Assembly (NCBI GenBank): GCA_949300355.1
Contig: CASGDY010000005.1
Location: 1-33,299 of the forward strand
Reading direction: 5' to 3'
DNA from: an uncultured Brachyspira sp.
GTDB taxonomy: Bacteria > Spirochaetota > Brachyspiria > Brachyspirales > Brachyspiraceae
Length of the DNA stretch: 33,299 bases
Shown in pieces: positions 5,343 through 11,345 of the stretch (positions within the stretch are counted from its first letter, which is position 1; each line of letters opens with the position of its first letter). Below the pieces are notes generated by a model. That model saw nothing but the letters and a program-made list of their open reading frames with translations. It was not told the origin of the DNA and searched no databases. The translations under genes and the position numbers were made by a program.

Positions 5343-5822
5343 ATGAAAAAATATTTACTTGAGAATAAACTAGAAGATATTACCCCATTAATAGAAAATT
5401 TATCTGCTGAAGTAAAAAAATACATACCGAATAATGAAATGGATTTATTTGCTGCTGCATTATATGAAGTGATTATGAATGCAATTGAGCATGGAAATCT
5501 TAACATTTTATACGAAACTAAAAAAAATTGGCTTAAGAAAAATATTTACCATAAAAAATTAAAAGAACTTCTAAAAACTGAAAAAGCTAAAACAACTCAT
5601 GTAGAAATAACATTGCAAATAGAAGATGATAATATTATTATTGCTGTTAAAGATCAGGGACTTGGATTTAAACCTAAACAGGAAGCTAAAAAAATAAACA
5701 GCGATGGATTTGCAAGAGAAAGCGGAAGAGGAATTATGATGATTAAATCATACTTTGATGAAGTGAAATTTAATAAAAAAGGCAATGTTATAACTTTAAT
5801 AAAAATAATAAAAAAAGAGTAA
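5343..5822 (+). CDS. RsbW-type anti-sigma/serine kinase ATPase domain protein
   Basis: A single HATPase_c_2 domain, the GHKL fold used by anti-sigma factor kinases such as RsbW and SpoIIAB. The N box is YEVIMNAIEHGN with N46, the G1 motif is KDQGLGF with D104, and the G2-like loop is ESGRGIMMIKSYFD (126-139). A Lys-rich insert of about 30 residues (56-86) separates the N box from G1, longer than in typical RsbW. No membrane segment is seen. Members of this family bind a sigma factor or phosphorylate a STAS-domain antagonist, but neither partner is encoded nearby. It is divergent from rpmH and lies 101 bp upstream of the Nudix-kinase gene in the same direction. Confidence 0.75.
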   Translation: MKKYLLENKLEDITPLIENLSAEVKKYIPNNEMDLFAAALYEVIMNAIEHGNLNILYETKKNWLKKNIYHKKLKELLKTEKAKTTHVEITLQIEDDNIIIAVKDQGLGFKPKQEAKKINSDGFARESGRGIMMIKSYFDEVKFNKKGNVITLIKIIKKE

Positions 5823-5923: not shown

Positions 5924-7474
5924 ATGTCTAATGATAAAAAAATAAAAAAAGTAAAAAACACTAAATACTTCCGTAAATCTCCTCCTATACAGTTAGATAC
6001 AGGATTTGTGAGTTTAGAGAGATTTATGGCTATTAATGAATATGATGACGGCTCTTTTTCCAGAGAATATAACTGCGATATAATTAACAGAAAAGGAAGA
6101 GATGCTGTTATTATAGTTCCATATACTTATATAGATAATCAAATACATGTTCTTATGATTAGCACTTTCAGGCCTGTTGTTTATTATAGAGAAAAAGTAA
6201 TGACAGGAAAAAAACCGGAAGAAATAGACGAATATATTATGAATTTTCTAGAGTTTCCTGCCGGTATGCTTGAAGAAGATGAAATTAATGAAAAGAATCC
6301 TAATCAGGGAATAAAAAGATGTGCTAAAAGAGAACTTGAAGAAGAAACGGGATACAATGTAGATTTAAAAAAGATAAATGTATTAGGACATAGATATTAT
6401 AGTTCTTCAGGAATTATAACAGAAAGAATTAATATTGCCACATGCGACATAACAGGATTAACTCCTAAAAAAGAAATTCAAACAGATGGTTCTGTAATGG
6501 AAGAAACTATAGAATCTTTTTTCGTACCATTTGACAAGGCTATGAGATGGTGTAAGGAAGGCGTAATAAAAAATGCCGGTACAGAAATAGGACTTCATAG
6601 ACTTTATTTCTCCATACTATATGAACATCAAAAGAATCATAATTTAATACTTCAAAAAAGGCTTCATGCTCTTTTGAATGAAATAAATTCTCTCAAAAAA
6701 AGTGCTGAACATTACAATAAATTAATAAGAGAATTCAAAGCAACTGTTTCTCATGAATTAAGACATCCTTTCACAGAAATTATGGGATACATTAATTTGC
6801 TTAAAAAGAATAATATGCCTGAAGAAAAAAGAGAGGAATTCTTTAATATCGTTTCAAGAAGCATTAAAAAACTTTATGATACTAATAACAATCTTATACA
6901 AATAGCTTTAAAAGATGATGAAAGTTCTAAATATGTATCTGAATTTAATATTAAAGAAGAACTTGATATTATCATAGAAGGTTATAAATTCATTTACCCT
7001 AAAAATATAAATATAGAAATGAATATAGAAAAAAACTGCACAACATTGATAGGATATCATGAAAGATTCAGGCTTATAATGGAAGGCATAATATCTAATG
7101 CTTTCAAATTTACAAAATCCGGAACTATATCAATAAATGTAAGAACTTTAGATACTATAGAAAAAAAAGAGCTTGATTTCTCACCTGACTTATTCAATTA
7201 TCATACCATGAAAAATATTATACCGAATGAAATTGAGATAATAGTAAAAGATACAGGAAAGGGAATAAAGCCCAGCAAATTAAAAAAAGTATTCATACCA
7301 TTTTATCAAGCTGATTCGAGATTTGAAAGAGAGTACGGCGGAATGGGTATTGGTTTATCTGTTGTAAAAGATTTGCTTGATACTATGCAGGGAACAATAA
7401 GTATAGACAGTTCGGAAGGTGCCGGTACTATAGTAAAATTAAGAATGCCTTTTGGTATTCCTAGCAAAAACTAG
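5924..7474 (+). CDS. Nudix domain-histidine kinase fusion (soluble)
   Basis: Residues about 55-235 form a Nudix hydrolase domain resembling ADP-ribose/NDP-sugar pyrophosphatases. The box begins at G114 with E120 and ends RELEEETGY (136-144), but the central loop is about 8 residues longer than the canonical seven. A short helical linker (about 235-270) leads to a HisKA dimerisation domain with SHELRHPF and phospho-acceptor H277. A HATPase_c domain follows, with N392, DTGKGI (443-448) and GGMGIGL (472-478). There are no membrane segments and no receiver domain. The likely role is a cytoplasmic sensor kinase whose Nudix module binds or hydrolyses a nucleotide ligand, which is inference. No response regulator is adjacent. 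The ATG is weakly preceded by AAAGAGA. Confidence 0.85.
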   Translation: MSNDKKIKKVKNTKYFRKSPPIQLDTGFVSLERFMAINEYDDGSFSREYNCDIINRKGRDAVIIVPYTYIDNQIHVLMISTFRPVVYYREKVMTGKKPEEIDEYIMNFLEFPAGMLEEDEINEKNPNQGIKRCAKRELEEETGYNVDLKKINVLGHRYYSSSGIITERINIATCDITGLTPKKEIQTDGSVMEETIESFFVPFDKAMRWCKEGVIKNAGTEIGLHRLYFSILYEHQKNHNLILQKRLHALLNEINSLKKSAEHYNKLIREFKATVSHELRHPFTEIMGYINLLKKNNMPEEKREEFFNIVSRSIKKLYDTNNNLIQIALKDDESSKYVSEFNIKEELDIIIEGYKFIYPKNINIEMNIEKNCTTLIGYHERFRLIMEGIISNAFKFTKSGTISINVRTLDTIEKKELDFSPDLFNYHTMKNIIPNEIEIIVKDTGKGIKPSKLKKVFIPFYQADSRFEREYGGMGIGLSVVKDLLDTMQGTISIDSSEGAGTIVKLRMPFGIPSKN

Positions 7475-7778: not shown

Positions 7779-8210
7779 TTAATTTATATTTTTAATTATT
7801 ACTATCTTTCTTCCATTATCCTCAAAATAAAAATCATCTGTATATAAAGAAATAAGAAAGATTCCTCTTCCGCTGTCTTTGTAAATATTATCCTGCGATT
7901 CTGTTAAACATATCATAGCAGAAAAATAATCAAATCCATCACCTTCATCTTCTATTATCACTTTAATCATTTCATCATTGATATAAAAATATATATTTAC
8001 ATTTTTATTATAATCATTTTTATTTCCATGAATGATAGCATTAGTTAAAGCTTCCTCAAAAGCTATTTGAAATGCCCCGCATTCATCTACTCCATTAGAA
8101 TGTAAAAAAGATAAGAAATCATTGGAAACTTTAGGTACCAATAATTTATCACTAGGAATTTTTACACATAATCTTTTCTCTACTTTATTTTCACAATAAT
8201 CTCTGCACAT
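7779..8210 (-). CDS. RsbW-type anti-sigma/serine kinase ATPase domain protein
   Basis: A second single-domain HATPase_c_2 (RsbW/SpoIIAB-like) protein of 143 residues. The N box is FEEALTNAIIHGNKND with N57, G1 is EDEGDGFD with D88, and the lid is KDSGRGIFLISLYTDD (111-126). It lacks the Lys-rich insert of the homologue at 5343. An in-frame TTG lies 6 nt further upstream, but the ATG at 8210 is preferred because an AGAG-like site sits about 8 nt before it. The N-terminus contains three Cys (2, 6, 15). It converges on the Nudix-kinase gene across repeat copy 2 and is divergent from the aminotransferase gene. The sigma factor or antagonist partner is unknown. Confidence 0.75.
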   Translation of the reverse strand: MCRDYCENKVEKRLCVKIPSDKLLVPKVSNDFLSFLHSNGVDECGAFQIAFEEALTNAIIHGNKNDYNKNVNIYFYINDEMIKVIIEDEGDGFDYFSAMICLTESQDNIYKDSGRGIFLISLYTDDFYFEDNGRKIVIIKNIN

Positions 8211-8258
8211 AGTCAACTCTATTATTACTATAACTAGTTACATTATATTTAACTATAA

Positions 8259-9495: not shown

Positions 9496-10485
9496 ATGAG
9501 TGATTTTTCTATTATTTCTCTTTTTTCTGGTGCAGGCGGCTTAGATTTAGGTTTTAAAAATGCTGGATTTAAAACAATATGGGCAAATGAATATGATAAA
9601 ACTATTTGGGATACATTTGAATATAATTTTCCTGATATAGAATTAGATAAAAGAAGTATAACTGATATAGAAAGTAAGGATATACCTGATTCAATTGGCT
9701 TAATAGGAGGACCTCCATGTCAAAGCTGGAGTGAAGCAGGTGCTGGAAGAGGTATAAACGATAGCAGAGGAAAACTATTTTATGATTATATTCGTATTTT
9801 GAAAGAAAAACAGCCTAAATTTTTTTTAGCAGAAAATGTAGTTGGTATATTAGCTAAAAAACATAATGAAGCATTTAATAATTTTTTATTAGAATTCAAA
9901 AATGCTAATTATAATATATCCTGTAAATTATTAGATGCCAATGATTATGGAGTGCCTGAAACCAGAAAAAGAGTAATAATAGTAGGATATCATAATAGCA
10001 TTAATAAGACTTTTGTATTTCCTACTCCAGAAAAATATAAGCCTACTTTGAAAGATGCTATATATGATTTGCCTCCTGCTGTTTCAGCTAAGGAAAAAAA
10101 TAAAACTAATGATAATTTAAAAATAGCAAATCATGAATATATGAACGGTGGATTTTCAACTATATATATGTCTAGAAATAGAGTCCGTTCTTGGGATGAA
10201 CCTTCATTTACAATACAAGCAGGAGGAAGACATGCTCCTATACACCCTCAGGCACCTAAAATGGTATTTGTAGAAAAGGATAAATATATTTTTGCTAAAG
10301 GATATGAAAATCAATATAGACGTTTAAGTGTTAGAGAATGTGCAAGAATACAAACTTTTCCAGATTCATTCATATTTAAATATACAAATATTTCTGATGG
10401 ATATAAAATGATAGGGAATGCTGTTCCTGTTAATTTAGCTTTTCATATAGCTAAAAAAATTATGAAAGATTTGGAGAATATATGA
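9496..10485 (+). CDS. DNA (cytosine-5) methyltransferase, type II RM
   Basis: This enzyme methylates C5 of cytosine in the recognition site of the adjacent endonuclease. Motif I is SLFSGAGGLDLGFKNAGF (8-25, AdoMet binding). Motif IV is GGPPCQSWS with catalytic C75. Motif VI is ENV (113-115). Motif VIII is VPETRKRVIIVG. Motifs IX and X are the C-terminal RRLSVRECARIQTFPDSF and the GNAVPVNLA segment. At 329 residues it has the size of GGCC-type methylases such as M.NgoPII and M.HaeIII, which fits the neighbouring endonuclease. No Shine-Dalgarno sequence is visible before the ATG, so translation may be coupled to the aminotransferase gene. Its stop overlaps the endonuclease start. Confidence 0.92.
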   Translation: MSDFSIISLFSGAGGLDLGFKNAGFKTIWANEYDKTIWDTFEYNFPDIELDKRSITDIESKDIPDSIGLIGGPPCQSWSEAGAGRGINDSRGKLFYDYIRILKEKQPKFFLAENVVGILAKKHNEAFNNFLLEFKNANYNISCKLLDANDYGVPETRKRVIIVGYHNSINKTFVFPTPEKYKPTLKDAIYDLPPAVSAKEKNKTNDNLKIANHEYMNGGFSTIYMSRNRVRSWDEPSFTIQAGGRHAPIHPQAPKMVFVEKDKYIFAKGYENQYRRLSVRECARIQTFPDSFIFKYTNISDGYKMIGNAVPVNLAFHIAKKIMKDLENI

Positions 10486-11345
10486 TGCATACTAATTTAA
10501 TAAGAGCTATTATAAATATAGTAAATAACCCTGTTATAAAATTAAAAACTTACACAAAAGGAAGTAATCGTATTAATAATGTAGGAGATTCATTGGAAGA
10601 ATACATAAAAGATATGTTTGCCTCTACTATGTTTGAAAATGATGAAAATATACGAAATCATAAAATATCAGAATGTTTTAGTTATACCGGAAATAAAAAT
10701 AATCCGCCAGATATTATTATAAAAAGAGGAGATGCTATAGAGGTAAAAAAAATAGAAAATATAACCGCTGATTTAGCTCTTAATAGTTCATATCCTAAAT
10801 CTAAGCTATATTCTGATAGCGATATGATAACAGAAGCATGTAAAAATTGCGAAAATGGCTGGAGAGAAAAAGATATTATATATGCAGTTGGTACAGTAAA
10901 TAAAACTAACGAATTATACCAATTATCATTTGTATATGGAGAGGACTATGCTGCTAGTAATAATGTTTATGAAAGAATAAAAAATACAATAAAAAACGGG
11001 ATAATTAGTATAGAAAATATAGAATTTTCTCAAACAAATGAACTTGGTAAAGTGAAAAGAATAGATCCTTTAGGTATAACTTCTTTATGTATAAGAGGCA
11101 TGTGGCATATACAAAATCCTATAAAAACTTTTTCGTATGTCTATAATAGAAATGAAGAAGCTAAATTTAATTTAATGGCTATAATAAATGAAACTAAATT
11201 CAATTCTTTTGAAAAAAATGATGTAAAAAAATTAATAGAAATATCAAAAAATAACAATAATTTATCAATAAAAGATATTTATATAAAAGATCCAAATAAT
11301 CCTGCCAAATTAAAAAAAGCTAAAATCATTATTTTTTATTTATAA
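10482..11345 (+). CDS. NgoPII-like type II restriction endonuclease
   Basis: Cleaves DNA that is not methylated at the recognition site. The PD-(D/E)XK core is visible as [16 protein letters not shown], with D77 and E87-V-K89. It is followed by [17 protein letters not shown] and an [14 protein letters not shown] segment that I recognise as typical of the NgoPII family, whose known members cut GGCC. The specificity is therefore a family-based inference. The gene overlaps the methylase by 4 nt (ATGA) and has a GGAG site inside the methylase end. Low G+C and many Asn/Lys codons resemble its surroundings. GGCC sites do exist in the window (for example 12416, 13232, 23154), as expected if they are protected by methylation. 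Confidence 0.82.

Follow-up and report, generated by a model that had tools for sequence, protein, structure and literature searches.

A Nudix domain fused to a histidine kinase throughout the Brachyspirales: a candidate cytoplasmic sensor of a nucleoside-diphosphate metabolite

The transcription factors NrtR and AraR use a Nudix domain as their ligand sensor, with ADP-ribose and L-arabinose as ligands, and their output is DNA binding (PMC6800001, PMC4666351). In TRPM2, a eukaryotic ion channel, the NUDT9-H domain is a Nudix ADPRase domain that serves as an ADP-ribose sensor and is enzymatically active in invertebrates (PMC6461439). Nudix enzymes of the AdpP-type fold bind the ligand between two protomers, with the other monomer covering about half of the ligand's buried surface, and they count helix alpha-3 among the elements of their sugar-recognition module (PMC4629899). 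On the signalling side, histidine kinases can act through a receiver-PP2C phosphatase on RsbW, a cascade established in M. smegmatis (RsfS-RsfR) and described for B. cereus (RsbK-RsbY; PMC10950880). Literature searches turned up no account of a Nudix-histidine kinase, and the order-wide protein reported here is real and apparently undescribed.

The window, that is, the whole stretch of DNA analysed, comprises 33,299 nucleotides; features lie on the forward strand unless noted otherwise. The Nudix-histidine kinase gene (5924..7474) begins with ATG and encodes 516 aa, arranged as Nudix (about residues 10-232), HisKA and HATPase_c with the catalytic motifs complete. Pfam matched all three domains: NUDIX at residues 110-206 (25.9 bits against a cut-off of 21.1), HisKA at residues 269-330 (34.9 bits, above the cut-off) and HATPase_c at residues 380-510 (74.1 bits, above the cut-off). 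The HisKA (DHp) domain lies at 6728..6913, with the phospho-acceptor His277 at 6752-6754, and the HATPase_c kinase domain at 7061..7453. The kinase boxes of the window protein are His277 (HELRHP), the N-box SNAFKFT, G1 DTGKG and G2 GMGIGL; the H-box and the N, G1 and G2 motifs of a HisKA-type kinase were found in all 31 orthologs, the N-box reading TNALKFT in L038. Neither the sequence nor the predicted model gave an apparent transmembrane region. The winged-helix DNA-binding domain of NrtR-type regulators was not detected by Pfam in the Nudix kinase, which has kinase domains instead. The first-pass annotation had described a soluble histidine kinase with an N-terminal Nudix domain and with catalytic motifs in both halves. 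The Pfam domains, the order-wide fusion and the lack of an apparent transmembrane region bear out the architecture, and the four catalytic residues of the Nudix box (31/31), together with H277 and the ATP motifs, bear out the motifs. The ATP-binding domain also carries an insertion (7157-7210, residues about 412-429) that was modelled with low confidence and contains an [SM]PDLFNYH motif near-invariant in every aligned kinase ortholog.

Brachyspirales is an order of gut and environmental spirochaetes. An uninterrupted full-length ortholog was present in 26 of 26 genomes of the genus, and the fusion was single-copy and uninterrupted in all 31 Brachyspirales genomes (two families, five genera), with identities of 42-99%; its recurrence in 31 genomes rules out chance or an assembly artefact. 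The nearest named records over the Nudix part were from uncultured Brachyspira (99%). The search for Nudix and HisKA architectures across spirochaetes, which had been proposed as a check, gave no further match over the Nudix part in other Spirochaetota (296 phylum genomes, 138 genera). The one extra phylum match, in G066, was a kinase whose N-terminus is unlike this one and apparently spans the membrane. When GTDB as a whole was scanned with the Nudix alignment, the kinase fusion turned up in no group outside Brachyspirales, the scan being built on patterns of this Nudix subfamily, with kinase fusions of other Nudix subfamilies beyond its reach. Phylogeny of the Nudix part grouped the fused copies in one clade (support 100/100), which is most simply explained by a single fusion event. 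A viral origin was rejected, with no relative among viral contigs, as was a horizontal origin via plasmid, with no plasmid record covering 80% of the protein.

Profile comparison and the predicted model assign the Nudix part, its N-terminal beta domain included, to the AdpP/NudK fold group (AdpP/YffH, NudF/NudK). It matched positions 13-184 of the 188 positions of TIGR00052 with 61.6 bits (E 7e-17), below the curated cut-off of 79.55 bits, and hhalign aligned it with E. coli NudF over 175 columns beginning at NudF residue 24 (E 1.1e-15). The protein is a HisKA-family kinase with a new input domain, which is a relative of TIGR00052 but is not scored into that family. The top PDB profile matches of the Nudix part were NudK and ADP-ribose pyrophosphatases. 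AlphaFold gave a pLDDT of about 90-96 across most of the Nudix domain, and Foldseek placed the model with NudK bound to GDP-mannose (TMt 0.79) and the K. pneumoniae ADPRase (0.77), so the structure prediction that had been suggested yielded a region resembling substrate-bound NudK and an ADP-ribose diphosphatase. The N-terminal beta domain of the AdpP/NudK-type fold (5951..6091, residues 10-56) has strands E10-17, E29-40 and E49-56 in the model and is followed by the Nudix core (6092..6619, residues 57-232), with Arg83 at 6170-6172. The initial placement of the Nudix domain at residues 50-235 captured the core, but the unit is larger, with the N-terminal beta domain starting near residue 10.

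The kinase Nudix domain is like NudF (1G0S/1KHZ) and NudK/YffH (3O61) in the Nudix-box Glu residues, the phosphate Arg, the ribose Gly/Glu and the L9 Glu; it differs from them in a loop 8 residues longer, in Cys-Asp in place of the base-recognising Arg-Glu, and in its fusion to a kinase. The Nudix box (6263..6355, G114-Y144, with Arg136, Glu137, Glu140 and Glu141) reads G114-x5-E120-x15-R136-E137-L-E-E140-E141-T-G143-Y in the window protein, which satisfies the consensus GX5EX7REUXEEXGU except that x7 is x15. R136, E137, E140, E141 and G143 were kept in 31/31 fused orthologs, and E137 aligns with NudK Glu100, which had been altered in 3O61, a structure with bound substrate. DGSVMEE (6485..6505, residues 188-194), the catalytic-base loop L9, aligned with the L9 Glu of NudK/NudF, and the pattern DGS[VP]MEE was invariant apart from V/P in 31/31 fused and 61/61 stand-alone proteins. 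Alignment to published residue roles (PMC4629899) identified R83 as the beta-phosphate Arg and G163 and E167 as the distal-ribose Gly and Glu, all of them invariant; the metal residues are retained as well. Gly163 and Glu167 lie in SSSGIITE (6401..6424, residues 160-167), where the proline of SPG is replaced by Ser in Brachyspira; other genera have SPG or APG. The L1 aromatic residue is probably F28, and the Nudix domain as a whole is probably still catalytic, as judged from its residues.

An intact active site also bears on whether the domain could be a pure ligand-binding sensor in which catalysis is lost or barely used, as in NrtR factors. NrtR is the best-known Nudix regulator, MsNrtR answers ADP-ribose without hydrolysis (PMC6800001), and the kinase Nudix lacks the base-stacking Arg, all of which would agree with such a sensor. 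However, the loss of activity in MsNrtR came with a damaged Nudix box, whereas the Nudix box and L9 glutamates of the kinase are intact in 31/31 orthologs despite identities ranging over 42-99%, and we consider a purely binding domain unlikely. The same invariance, extending beyond the interface to the pocket residues over 31 genomes, makes it very improbable that the domain is a mere dimerisation scaffold, with a partner protein or nothing as the signal, even though Nudix enzymes of the AdpP type form stable, domain-swapped dimers (PMC4629899). The preferred reading of a sensor that probably hydrolyses its ligand would be comparable, by analogy, to NrtR as an inactive sensor and to invertebrate TRPM2 as an active one. 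It differs from the former in that MsNrtR has a degenerate box and NrtR/AraR act on DNA, whereas the box here is intact and the output is a histidine kinase; TRPM2 belongs to another Nudix subfamily.

The Nudix-box loop had been noted as about 8 residues longer than usual, and this is correct, the E-to-R linker being x15 against x7 in GX5EX7RE. The extra length was +8 in 28 of the 31 fused orthologs, +9 in one and +5 in two. The accompanying idea that the loop alters hydrolysis and favours sensing did not hold, since the stand-alone relatives are also long-looped (+4 to +8 over the standard box, 61/61), and a sensor adaptation is ruled out. Because the stand-alone relatives have it too, the long loop is, by this comparison, a subfamily trait and gives no argument for sensing over catalysis.

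For the ligand, Cys51-Asp52 stands where the beta-3 Arg-Glu base-recognising pair of known members aligns. Helix alpha-3 starts with NAGTE (6572..6586, residues 217-221; PMC4629899), so that N217-A218-G219 occupies the position of D-x-K in GDP-mannose-type NDPSases (NudK, Bd3179). The DxK motif of NudK is thus absent from the kinase Nudix, and the alpha-3 start in the kinase orthologs is N-[AG]-x, which is ADPRase-like, as in DNAAS of NudF. ADP-ribose, one of the candidate signals put forward by the first-pass annotation, fits the distal-ribose and phosphate residues and the NAx motif, but is qualified by the exchange of the base-binding Arg-Glu for Cys51-Asp52. With Cys51 in place of the base-stacking Arg, plain ADP-ribose is unproven and only one candidate ligand, and for the same reason the ligand may be unusual.

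The GTDB-wide scan returned, besides the fusions, 61 loci (L093-L153) of Nudix relatives, whose frames end 0-40 residues past the match and which therefore have no kinase downstream. These stand-alone proteins, found in Planctomycetota, Myxococcota and Deltaproteobacteria, are uncharacterised and are the closest sequence relatives of the kinase Nudix (29-37% identity over about 200 aa). They share DGS[VP]MEE, the longer loop and, in most cases, Cys-Asp with the fused domain. In contrast, the Nudix-box Arg is absent from 61/61 stand-alone relatives and kept in the fused copies, which thus have the more canonical active site, and nearly all relatives have D-x-K-T-E where the fused copies have N-[AG]-x-T-E. 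Given these two differences, the ligand of the fused proteins is probably not the same as that of the free ones.

The signalling helix (6575..6709, residues 218-262) is Nudix alpha-3 running toward the kinase, and its first turn bears the sugar-specificity motif. In the AlphaFold monomer model the helix is unbroken over residues 218-293, the last Nudix helix leading straight into the kinase helix; its pLDDT is 79-94 up to residue 260, and that of the DHp part is low (55-67). The spacing from R226 to H277 was 51 residues in 30 of 31 orthologs and 52 in one. The Nudix domain, which had been proposed as the apparent sensor, does sit at the sensor position, has a confident NudK/ADPRase-like predicted fold and is joined directly to the kinase helix. 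Since AdpP-type enzymes hold the ligand between protomers and alpha-3 belongs to the recognition module, occupancy of the interface could plausibly move the kinase helices, and a two-protomer ligand site would be a plausible natural route to the control of a dimeric kinase.

We propose a substrate-sensing, probably hydrolysing cytoplasmic kinase, with a dimeric input of the AdpP/NudK fold, that feeds a partner-switching circuit; we rate the chances of this model as about even. Two Nudix protomers would hold the substrate between them, this being ribose linked to a nucleoside diphosphate or a comparable NDP-X, and the recognition end of alpha-3, on the same helix as the DHp coiled coil, would then shift and set the kinase/phosphatase balance. 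Hydrolysis would remove the ligand and end the signal. As the likely output, the kinase would pass its phosphoryl group to the orphan receiver-PP2C, which in turn would control the co-encoded RsbW-like ATPase via a STAS protein. The sensing and hydrolysing half of this model is well supported by sequence; we infer the output half, as well as catalysis, ligand class, dimerisation, coupling and the receiver partner. Because the ADPRase activity of invertebrate TRPM2 is uncoupled from gating (PMC6461439), catalysis and signalling need not be coupled. The most far-reaching version, in which the kinase reads and destroys its own signal, has a new base preference, uses the substrate helix as the signalling helix and controls RsbW order-wide, is doubtful.

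The flow could also be reversed, with the kinase half controlling the Nudix hydrolase as a phosphorylation-regulated enzyme. The intact active site and the rigid helical link would permit such control, and no receiver gene lies beside the Nudix kinase; however, all kinase motifs are kept, the phospho-acceptor helix included, the Nudix domain occupies the N-terminal position of an input domain, and the neighbours are signalling genes. We regard a reversed flow as very unlikely and retain the Nudix domain as the input.

The next gene upstream encodes an RsbW-like ATPase (5343..5822; HATPase_c_2 by Pfam) and ends about 100 bp before the kinase gene starts. Of the 29 genomes of the family, 28 (in 3 genera) have this gene immediately before the kinase gene and in the same orientation, while other flanking genes vary. 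G020 has the Nudix kinase and the receiver-PP2C without an ortholog of the RsbW gene, and the other Brachyspirales family has no RsbW gene beside the Nudix kinase. The best homologs in that family are 7TMR-DISM/PAS membrane proteins with an RsbW-like domain as the C-terminus (L154 4202-6508, reverse strand; L155 3193-5415, forward strand), so that RsbW is fused there to its own sensor. A second RsbW-like ATPase gene of the window (7779..8216, reverse strand) is convergent and occurs at that place only in 11 Brachyspira genomes, so that it is probably no part of the core unit. A zinc-finger anti-sigma/ECF sigma pair was likewise rejected as a fixed partner, being present in only 9/29 genomes of the family. 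In eight Brachyspira genomes and one of another genus (L035, L023-L030, L041 and L042), the kinase gene is faced by convergent genes for the anti-sigma factor, the ECF sigma factor and a small secreted protein, an arrangement that is probably ancestral. Functional ties to GlgC (the divergent gene in L035, named from sequence) and to the sugar-nucleotide genes of the window were ruled out, as neither is conserved across the other loci.

The statement that no receiver is adjacent proved accurate, as 0/15 Response_reg matches of the genome fell on the kinase contig. The Brachyspira genomes searched each have about 15 receivers, several without an adjacent kinase, and five HisKA matches. A receiver gene lies no more than about 4 kb from each of the four remaining kinases of the complete genome G010, whereas the Nudix kinase has none at such a distance. 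The receiver-PP2C phosphatase is single-copy in 31/31 Brachyspirales genomes, and no kinase gene lay beside it in the loci examined. With the adjacent HATPase_c_2 gene, this phosphatase and several STAS genes, the parts for partner switching are encoded. RsfS-RsfR and RsbK-RsbY, in which a histidine kinase acts on a receiver-PP2C above an RsbW switch, have the same parts list (PMC10950880); their inputs are CHASE3 or GAF, whereas that of the Brachyspirales kinase is Nudix and its pairing is inferred. Because such cascades are known in M. smegmatis and B. cereus, the receiver-PP2C is our best guess for the output, although we put it forward as the phosphotransfer partner only tentatively. The same sensor may instead phosphorylate a stand-alone receiver or an orphan NtrC-type regulator, with the RsbW neighbour being separate. 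The several receiver genes without an adjacent kinase and the presence of the kinase without the RsbW gene in G020 make this a serious possibility, though one somewhat short of even; against it stand the conservation of the RsbW neighbour in 28/29 genomes with otherwise variable flanks and the known logical tie of an orphan receiver, the receiver-PP2C, to RsbW (PMC10950880). In G000, G010 and G152 (L169, L170 and L172), which cover both families, the receiver-PP2C gene directly follows genes that resemble those for PBP2 and RodA, named by sequence inspection, and this position hints at partner switching tied to cell elongation.

Taken as a sensor, the Nudix kinase suggests that Brachyspirales gauge a nucleotide-sugar-type molecule by binding and perhaps destroying it. 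If true, a nucleoside-diphosphate metabolite would be read directly by a two-component system with signal removal built in, and signalling in this kinase-poor order would gain a first point of access. A Nudix subfamily with an altered base-binding site is thereby defined, and one soluble protein offers a direct way to study whether catalysis by the enzyme part is coupled to control of the kinase.

Much of the stand-alone subfamily (L093-L153) is missed by the Pfam NUDIX model, and many of its planctomycete and deltaproteobacterial loci adjoin genes for a Gfo/Idh/MocA oxidoreductase and a radical SAM protein; its substrate and pathway look undescribed. In the window, 9496-11345 encodes a C5 cytosine methylase and an NgoPII-type restriction endonuclease. 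These genes are missing from the corresponding site in L043 (G007), where the genes that flank them lie side by side, which points to a strain-specific restriction-modification insertion.
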